A stretch of DNA of 64,000 nucleotides. It comes from Paeniglutamicibacter terrestris (GTDB lineage: Bacteria > Actinomycetota > Actinomycetes > Actinomycetales > Micrococcaceae). A program made the translations under genes and the position numbers. The notes beneath the pieces were generated by a model. The model ran no database searches, was not told the origin of the DNA, and saw only the letters and a program-made list of their open reading frames with translations. The stretch lies in assembly GCF_012271785.1 (NCBI RefSeq), contig NZ_JAAWVT010000001.1, positions 310,001 to 374,000 on the forward strand. Reading direction: 5' to 3'. This document shows positions 25,386 to 27,456 of the stretch, piece by piece. The first letter of the stretch is position 1. Each line of letters starts with the position of its first letter.

Positions 25386-26573
25386 TTGAATGATGATCTA
25401 ACTCCCGTGGTTGTTGGCGGGGCACGTACTCCCTTTGGAAAATTCCGCGGATCACTTTCTTCACTCTCAGCCGTCGAGTTGGGAGCCCATGCCATTTCGG
25501 CAGCCTTGGAGCGTAGCGGGGTTTCGGTCACGGATGTTAACCACGTCATCATGGGTCAGGTCATCCTGGCCGGATCCGGCCAAGGCCCTGCGCGCCAGGC
25601 TGCGTTGAAGGCCGGCATTGGTTGGGATGTCCCCACGGTGACAATCAACAAACTTTGCCTTTCCGGACTGACGGCGGTGATTGATGCCGCCAGGATGATC
25701 CGCGCGGGAGAAGCCGACTTCATCGTTGCAGCGGGCCAAGAATCAATGACAAACGCTCCACACCTGGTGCGTGGAATGCGGTCCGGGATGATGACGGGCG
25801 ACAAGATGATGGAGGATTCGCTCAACCATGACGGCCTGGCCGACCCATTCACCGGTGAGTTGATGGGTTCGGCTACAGAGACGGGCAACGCCAAACTCGG
25901 AATCAAGCGCTCGGATCAAGATGCCTTGGCGGCTAGATCGCACCGGCGAGCCGATGCTGCCCGGTCGATTTTCGAGGCCCAGATCGCACCAATCACGATT
26001 GCCCAGCGCCGAGGTGCCGACGTGGTGGTGTCTGTTGATGAAGGCGTGCGCCCCGAAACCACCGAAGAGCAGCTTTCGTCCCTGCGTCCCGCGTTTTCTA
26101 GGGATCCGGATGCCACGATCACCGCTGGTTCATCCTCGCAACTTTCGGATGGCGCGGCCGCCGTGATCATCGCATCCAAGGGCGCTGCCCGCCGAGCCGG
26201 ACTGAGTTGGTTGTGCGAGATTGGGGCGCACGGGCAGACCGCTGGACCTGACGGACAACTCCATTCCCAGCCGAGCACCTCGATCCTCGCCGCGTTAGCA
26301 AAGGAAGAGCTGGCCATCCAAGATGTGGACCTCATCGAAATCAATGAAGCCTTCGCCTCGGTGGTTCTTCAGTCGGCTAAGGACTTGGGTGTGGAACCAG
26401 AGCGCATCAATCTCGAAGGCGGTGCCATTGCCCTAGGGCACCCCGTAGGTGCTTCGGGTGCGCGTCTGGTTCTTCATCAGGCAATGGAGTTGGCCAGGCG
26501 AGGTTCGGGCACTGGCGTGGTTTCGCTTTGCGGTGGCGGCGGCCAAGGTGACGCGCTCATCTTGCGCGCCTGA
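25386..26573 (+). CDS. Acetyl-CoA C-acetyltransferase (thiolase)
   Basis: 395 residues from a TTG start at 25386, chosen because GAAGGAA at 25373-25379 is ideally spaced and the resulting length is the family norm; the GTG at 25338 overlaps the opposing promoter. It begins LNDDLTPVVVGGARTPFGKF. The acyl-accepting Cys is Cys91 in INKLCLSG, with His in ALGHPVGASGAR and the second Cys in SLCGGGGQG. It condenses or cleaves acetoacetyl-CoA; either direction is possible, and biosynthetic-type enzymes have this length. The next element downstream is a small-RNA-like unit at 26638. Confidence 0.9.
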   Translation: MNDDLTPVVVGGARTPFGKFRGSLSSLSAVELGAHAISAALERSGVSVTDVNHVIMGQVILAGSGQGPARQAALKAGIGWDVPTVTINKLCLSGLTAVIDAARMIRAGEADFIVAAGQESMTNAPHLVRGMRSGMMTGDKMMEDSLNHDGLADPFTGELMGSATETGNAKLGIKRSDQDALAARSHRRADAARSIFEAQIAPITIAQRRGADVVVSVDEGVRPETTEEQLSSLRPAFSRDPDATITAGSSSQLSDGAAAVIIASKGAARRAGLSWLCEIGAHGQTAGPDGQLHSQPSTSILAALAKEELAIQDVDLIEINEAFASVVLQSAKDLGVEPERINLEGGAIALGHPVGASGARLVLHQAMELARRGSGTGVVSLCGGGGQGDALILRA

Positions 26574-26637
26574 TTTCACAAGGTACTAACTGTTCGTCTT
26601 CAGGCGACTCAAAGGTTCGCCGAATAAATTGATAGAT

Positions 26638-26716
26638 ACCTCATGAAGGTGCGAGTGATGAGAGCACCGGTCGGACTAAAGATTCCCCAGTCTTCCGACC
26701 GGTGCTCATCCTTTTA
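26638..26716 (+). ncRNA. Small-RNA-like unit 1 (paralogue of 27197-27284)
   Basis: A -10-like TAAATT (26625-26630) lies seven bases before ACCT, which pairs with AGGT to form a mini-hairpin. Then comes AAGGTGCGAGTGATGA (26646-26661), identical in unit 2. Finally a 14-bp perfect terminator stem (26662-26675 with 26694-26707) is followed by a short T run. It may be a free small RNA, a leader peptide/attenuator (AAGG then ATG 26658, stop TAA at the hairpin end), or only the thiolase terminator. Confidence 0.45.
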
Positions 26717-26974
26717 ATGCTCAGGGTTGGCACCAGCTAGTGAAAACGCCACGGGTTGAGACAAGTCGCTACCCGACACGATTGCTGAATCGTTCAGCCA
26801 GTTAACGGGCCGCTGCTCCGCCGCACGATTTCATAAGACAGCGACGGCTCTAGATTCGTTCGTGCAGGCGACACGATCGGCCCACTCGACAATAAACTCC
26901 CATGGGACCAGACTGAAGGTATCGGTTGTGCTGGCCAAGAGTCCGCACGTTCTACGGATTAAGGAGCACGCGTG

Positions 26975-27133
26975 ATGAGTGAACAACCAGTCGGCGACCA
27001 AGCAGAAGAAGCAGAAGAAGCAGAAGTACCCACCGAAAAGCCGGAGCATGTATCGAGCGAGCACGACGAGGCGCTGGTGGAGGAATGGGAAGACGAGTCT
27101 TTTCCTGCTTCGGATCCACCCTCGAATTACTGA
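26975..27133 (+). CDS. Very small acidic protein with SFPASDPP tail
   Basis: 52 residues from ATG 26975, with AAGGAG at 26961-26966 at good spacing. The N-terminal half is a run of Glu/Ala triplets (QAEEAEEAEVP) and the end reads WEDESFPASDPPSNY. The 'FPASDPP' tail resembles a motif seen in many short bacterial proteins of unknown role, which supports a real gene. It is strongly acidic, without a signal or membrane segment. It lies between the two small-RNA-like units; the 26717-26974 stretch before it has no other gene. The long antisense frame here is a by-product of the GAAGAAGCA repeats. Confidence 0.75.
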   Translation: MSEQPVGDQAEEAEEAEVPTEKPEHVSSEHDEALVEEWEDESFPASDPPSNY

Positions 27134-27196
27134 CTCAAAGCCGAATGACACCATTCGCCCAGCTTCCACACAGCTTCCCATTTTAGGCTAGTAATT

Positions 27197-27284
27197 ACCT
27201 TCTCAAGGTGCGAGTGATGATCAGAAGAACCGGTCGCGGCGGAGTTTCACCTCCTTTGCCGTCACGACCGGTTCTTCACTTTTA
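27197..27284 (+). ncRNA. Small-RNA-like unit 2 (paralogue of 26638-26716)
   Basis: TAGGCT (27184-27189) lies seven bases before ACCT, as in unit 1. Then follow the ACCT/AGGT mini-hairpin, the shared AAGGTGCGAGTGATGA (27205-27220), and a 13-bp terminator stem (27224-27236 with 27265-27277) with an inner GGAG/CTCC helix and a T run. Stem sequences differ from unit 1 except for a shared ACCGGTC, while the 5' part is conserved. The rest of the gap to 27456 shows no gene. Confidence 0.45.
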
Positions 27285-27456
27285 ACCTTTAGGACGTCCA
27301 CTCGGAACCGCGTCACATTGCTGCATATTTGACCGCGCCATCGCATGCCGAAACCCAACACCGTGGACGTGACGGGAATGTGGGGCAAGAATGGGATCCG
27401 CGGACGCAATGTCATCTGTCCGCTTTCCCCACGAAATCCAGGAGAACACCCACCCC

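Follow-up and report, generated by a model that had tools for sequence, protein, structure and literature searches.

Two similar short units flank a tiny acidic gene in Paeniglutamicibacter terrestris, and their architecture raises the question of whether they are small-RNA genes, leaders of neighboring genes or short coding regions. The window analyzed is the whole 64,000-nucleotide stretch of contig NZ_JAAWVT010000001.1 (positions 310,001–374,000), and all features described here lie on its plus strand. The preferred reading, with a probability of about 0.7, is that the units encode members of one trans-acting small-RNA (sRNA) family, induced by a PhoP-type regulator and carrying loops that block Shine-Dalgarno (SD) sites.

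The two units and their family

Both units have a -10-like hexamer exactly seven bases before ACCT, as the preliminary description had claimed. The hexamers, read from the sequence, are TAAATT (26625–26630) for unit 1 and TAGGCT (27184–27189) for unit 2, with ACCT at 26638 and 27197. With the start placed at ACCT, the predicted RNAs span 26638–26717 (unit 1, CCCC-loop type) and 27197–27285 (unit 2, anti-SD-loop type, recognized by covariance model score and a 22-mer 5′ block). An exact 16-mer, AAGGTGCGAGTGATGA, is common to both units (26646–26661 and 27205–27220) and conserved in relatives. Allowing up to 3 mismatches, it has 4 matches in the window versus 0.38 expected, a number reached in 0/100 shuffles. 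Folding recovered the mini-hairpin ACCT/AGGT (26638–26650 in unit 1) and a strong terminator-like stem in both units, again as described. The unit 1 stem (26662–26707) has a CCCC apical loop (26685–26688), is followed by CTTTTAA and is supported by its fold and by compensatory changes. The unit 2 stem (27224–27277) has the apical loop TTTCACCTCCTTT (27245–27257) and is supported by its fold and by covariation. Folding energies were far below those of shuffled sequence (unit 1, -35.8 kcal/mol, z -5.0; unit 2, -37.3 kcal/mol, z -4.3), and the stem arms differ between the units except for ACCGGTC. A simple consensus scanner found neither a sigma-70 promoter nor a short-loop terminator at either unit. 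It is blind to these promoters because regulator half-sites stand in place of the -35 element, and to these terminators because of their long loops and short T run (CTTTTAA).

Comparative evidence makes the feature secure. Covariance model R1 scored unit 1, which is in its training set, at 94.4 bits and unit 2 at 68.1 bits. The search of related genomes suggested in the preliminary description, with a covariance model built from 29 members, recovered the family in 53/80 Micrococcaceae genomes and 26/32 genera, and single genomes carried as many as seven copies. The description had also raised the case of relatives that lose the 16-mer and keep the terminators; the opposite was found, and the 16-mer is the best-conserved part. 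In a pattern search with at most 1 mismatch, 15/15 genomes of the genus had 3–6 matches each, and a reversed control pattern had none in the same genomes. The window genome has at least five copies, including three at C1:772923, 773254 and 774881. A match at C1:230984 (2 mismatches) was taken as chance, having neither the ACCT hairpin nor a promoter.

The family is confined to the Micrococcaceae among the genomes sampled. In the order sample, the exact core pattern was present in 28/35 Micrococcaceae versus 0/361 other genomes, and covariance model matches were restricted to Micrococcaceae; in the class sample, the core pattern had no match outside this family. The exact 22-mer of the unit 2 5′ block was found in 23 contigs among 84,980 species, all Micrococcaceae (Glutamicibacter, Paeniglutamicibacter, Zhihengliuella, Arthrobacter and Kocuria). 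No match to Rfam 15, including 6C and LhrC, was found in the window at the gathering threshold, and a search at E 5 returned nothing relevant (best sub-threshold E 0.32). No tRNAs were detected in the window, and searches of unit 2 against phages and of unit 1 against plasmids gave no match. Judged from sequence, units 1 and 2 are members of an undescribed multicopy small-RNA family of the Micrococcaceae.

Several relatives have unusual arrangements. Locus L077 (genome G036, contig C5) has four tandem copies inside 1 kb, most of which have either plain loops or CCUCC loops; this is a local amplification of the family. Loci L230, L231, L066, L067, L069, L071 and L073 encode longer RNA forms in which a further hairpin separates the 5′ module from the C-rich-loop hairpin. 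A copy in L024 (~1516, minus strand) has part of the 5′ module tandemly duplicated (ACCTCATGAAGGTGCGAGACTCATGATGGTGCGAGTGATGA).

Stem, terminator loops and 5′ module

The structure was examined in 98 distinct members. Fitting the alignment to the model favors the structure, and 98.8% of cells in the modelled helices were paired; controls were nevertheless far off, with 184 doubly changed cells versus 34 in shuffles and a covariation score of 0.464 versus 0.132. Compensatory changes were found in 10/10 modelled pairs of the terminator stem, and a one-base shift of the 3′ arm lowered pairing to ~42%. The 5′ mini-hairpin is paired in 99% of cells and is nearly invariant, and it is therefore beyond the reach of a covariation test. 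The family has a covarying structure without a conserved reading frame, as expected of sRNA genes.

In most members the terminator loop is CCCCC or CACCUCCUU, an anti-SD sequence. A hairpin loop with CCCC or CCUCC is present in 58/80 dereplicated members, versus 9.6% expected from shuffled letters. The CCCC of unit 1 is CCCCC in relatives. The unit 2 loop (UUUCACCUCCUUU) contains the usual 3′ end sequence of 16S rRNA, to which UCACCUCCUUU is identical; the reference is the general bacterial 3′ end, since no 16S end was found in this genome's assembly with up to 2 mismatches. CCUCCUU is retained in unit 2 orthologues of other genera. Such C-rich loops would fit pairing with SD sites in general, and these sites are the probable place of action. 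About a quarter of the 80 dereplicated members have no C-rich loop, so not all members can work through an anti-SD loop.

The 5′ block is unchanged to the letter across dozens of genera, while the rest of the RNA varies. It is retained in members with plain loops and so probably has its own function. A search of 15 genomes for ATCACTCGCACC, the 12-nt complement of the module core, returned almost only the sRNA genes themselves and no conserved long seed target; the seed would therefore be short, or the module would bind a protein. These observations bear on a less likely alternative, in which the RNAs work through the invariant module. Either a protein (an Hfq-like hub of Actinobacteria) or the ribosome would dock there, and the RNAs would serve as sponges or carriers, with the loops secondary. 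The likeness of the module to a ribosome-binding site (AAGGUG followed by GUG 3 nt on) speaks for docking, as do its exact conservation, the missing 12-nt complement in the genus and the plain-loop members; however, a seed of 7–9 nt would escape the complement search, C-rich loops are present in most members and no partner is known. A combined form, equally tentative, takes the 24-nt 5′ module as the recognition site of an RNA-binding hub in the Micrococcaceae, which are thought to be without Hfq. A PhoP-type regulator could then deploy a set of RNAs with a shared handle and exchangeable anti-SD loops.

Promoters, candidate regulators and neighboring genes

The promoters of unit 1 (26573–26624) and unit 2 (27132–27183; half-sites CCCAGC and CACAGC) carry direct half-sites with an 11-bp period, of the PhoP-type box. 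A PWM scan of the window ranked them first (unit 2, 28.1 bits) and second (unit 1, 23.8 bits), both having been in the training set, and the best non-sRNA site scored 13.5 bits. TANNNT stands 6–8 nt from ACC in 114/117 distinct members, which have their own promoter at a fixed distance from the RNA start, as sRNA genes should. Among distinct members, the -10 consensus is TAGAGT, and the promoter logo has A at -58, -47, -36 and -25, each inside a (T)CACAG[C/G]-like half-site. Up to four of these 11-bp direct half-sites lie immediately 5′ of the -10 hexamer. In 73 dereplicated promoters, AG at lag 11 was observed 79 times versus 7.6 expected (z 27), and its recurrence is also high at lags 22 and 33. 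The geometry suggests an OmpR/PhoB-type box in place of a -35 element. The Mycobacterium tuberculosis PhoP motif is published as TCACAGC-N4-TCACAGC (PMC4832192); the family half-site equals this motif, and the repeat that marks the PhoP regulon is present at the promoter. A site with four period-11 half-sites between two membrane-protein-like genes (L178, ~1500; G000:C30:6197-6234) is possibly a further member of the same regulon.

The same repeat links the family to PhoP-type regulator genes. A perfect CACAG-N6-CACAG-N6-CACAG occurs once in the genome (C5:66152; L162, 924–985), upstream of an OmpR-family gene (near C5:66275). The closest solved relative of its product is M. tuberculosis PhoP (E 1.9e-65). 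Orthologues in ~20 genera have similar repeats upstream, mostly at the same distance, and the perfect repeats before this gene suggest autoregulation. A second regulator (gene near C28:48905) is even closer to M. tuberculosis PhoP (E 2.6e-80) and has a homologue with ~50% identity or better in 41/41 genomes searched; its gene has weaker period-11 repeats at a fixed upstream place in most genomes tested. The first regulator has no close orthologue in some RNA-bearing genera, so it cannot be the sole regulator, and the second is a more parsimonious candidate unless both act. Promoter sequence suggests induction of the RNAs by a PhoP-type two-component regulator, which would activate rather than repress them.

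Direct repeats of 11 bp are common throughout the OmpR family, and the genome has 11 Trans_reg_C matches, which leaves a modest chance that the repeats bind another member of that family (MtrA, a phosphate PhoP or other) and not the two PhoP-type regulators. However, the CACAG repeats precede the PhoP-type regulators' own genes. The phosphate regulon was rejected because pstS promoters have no CACAG box, one of them having a box of the GTTCACC type. MtrA was rejected because its motif is of the GTnAC type (PMC6265350) and unlike the CACAG box. The sequence upstream of pstS in L152 contains a GTTCACC-N4-GTTCACC-like phosphate-type box, also unlike the CACAG box.

The tiny acidic gene (26975–27133) encodes MSEQPVGD...DESFPASDPPSNY and is the syntenic partner of unit 2. 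Its product has a conserved C-terminus, E[ED]ESFPASDPPSNY, and no Pfam or NCBIfam match. Paeniglutamicibacter, Glutamicibacter and Zhihengliuella loci have the tiny acidic protein beside the unit 2 orthologue, which lies downstream of the gene. Across the family, the next downstream gene, as called by a simple gene caller, has the same orientation in 70 cases and the opposite one in 43, and its identity varies. This variation led to rejection of the very improbable reading of the units as cis-acting attenuators or riboswitch-like leaders. A conserved 5′ domain ahead of a terminator would suit such leaders, as would the position of unit 1 before the tiny acidic gene and of unit 2 before an aldo/keto reductase. 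The downstream genes, however, do not share a gene identity or pathway, the tiny gene begins ~250 bp on with its own SD-like AAGGAG, and unit 2 stands after, not before, its conserved partner. Scarcely any weight is left for leader peptides or tiny proteins started at the GUG or AUG of AAGGUGCGAGUGAUG, which the preliminary description had offered as translation from AAGG-ATG into the hairpin: the SD-like AAGGUG, the in-frame starts and the window frames extending to TTTTAA allow it, but the AUG is not retained (ATCA, ATTA, ATCT), several members stop 2–4 codons past the invariant GUG, others have frame-shifting indels, variation tracks base pairing, and start and frame are not conserved together. 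With variable neighbors and no conserved reading frame, neither attenuators nor leader peptides fit.

The proposed pair of sRNA genes, each having a constant 5′ part and a free 3′ stem, is favored by multicopy, family-wide occurrence, covarying stem, near-universal promoter and variable neighbors. In the preferred reading of a PhoP-type-induced sRNA family, a PhoP-type (OmpR-family) response regulator would bind the tandem 11-bp direct half-sites just 5′ of the TANNNT -10 hexamer and activate each gene. RNA polymerase would begin at ACCT and yield an RNA of ~80–90 nt, in which the nearly invariant 5′ module (mini-hairpin and GCGAGUGAU) is followed by a terminator hairpin, its loop usually CCCCC or CACCUCCUU. 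By pairing with the SD region of target mRNAs, this loop would block translation, and the invariant 5′ module may be a shared element, acting as a short seed or contacting a common RNA-binding partner. Transcription from the predicted start and termination after the stem are probable, although the short U tract (TTTAA) of the terminator counts against this explanation. Scans of genomes for the regulon and for targets were made by pattern only.

Comparison with known systems

To our knowledge, little is known about regulatory RNAs of Actinobacteria beyond mycobacteria and Streptomyces, and no RNA hub protein has been established in Actinobacteria outside these groups. No relevant paper on Micrococcaceae or Arthrobacter sRNAs was found in a literature search that was incomplete, and this absence is no proof. 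The family described here is defined by sequence, structure and promoter, and is widespread in the Micrococcaceae and absent elsewhere among the sampled genomes. Its candidate regulators and handle sequence make the regulator, partner and targets directly testable, and the hosts are harmless bacteria of soil.

C-rich loops are found in several other RNAs. The 6C RNA (B11) of Actinobacteria has hairpin loops rich in C, for which pairing with G-rich SD sites has been proposed. It has two C-loops and a sequence unlike the family here, and the Rfam scan gave no 6C match. RsaE/RoxS, CcsR and the cuckoo RNAs have UCCC or anti-SD loops and belong to unrelated phyla; they differ from this family in promoters and hosts, and we know of no sequence relation.

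The OmrA and OmrB genes of enterobacteria are adjacent and have a common 5′ end, and their RNAs are Hfq-dependent, differ in sequence from the family here and have no anti-SD loop. These sibling sRNAs are homologous, share sequence and are linked to OmpR (PMC12692685). The Micrococcaceae RNAs are likewise siblings with shared sequence, and an OmpR-family regulator is proposed for them. Mcr7 of M. tuberculosis is a PhoP-dependent RNA proposed to act at the ribosome-binding site (PMC4038636). It is thus also an actinobacterial RNA under PhoP with proposed action at that site, but by description it is highly structured and pairs through a 33-nt loop (PMC4038636). LhrC1-5 of Listeria are encoded in several copies that all require the two-component system LisRK, and their CU-rich sites bind target mRNA and hinder translation (PMC4132741). 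The family here differs from LhrC in having no Rfam match, one C-rich terminator loop versus three redundant sites, a shared 5′ module and actinobacterial hosts. Both are multicopy families with two-component control and C-rich pairing sites, the regulator and the pairing being proposed for the Micrococcaceae RNAs.
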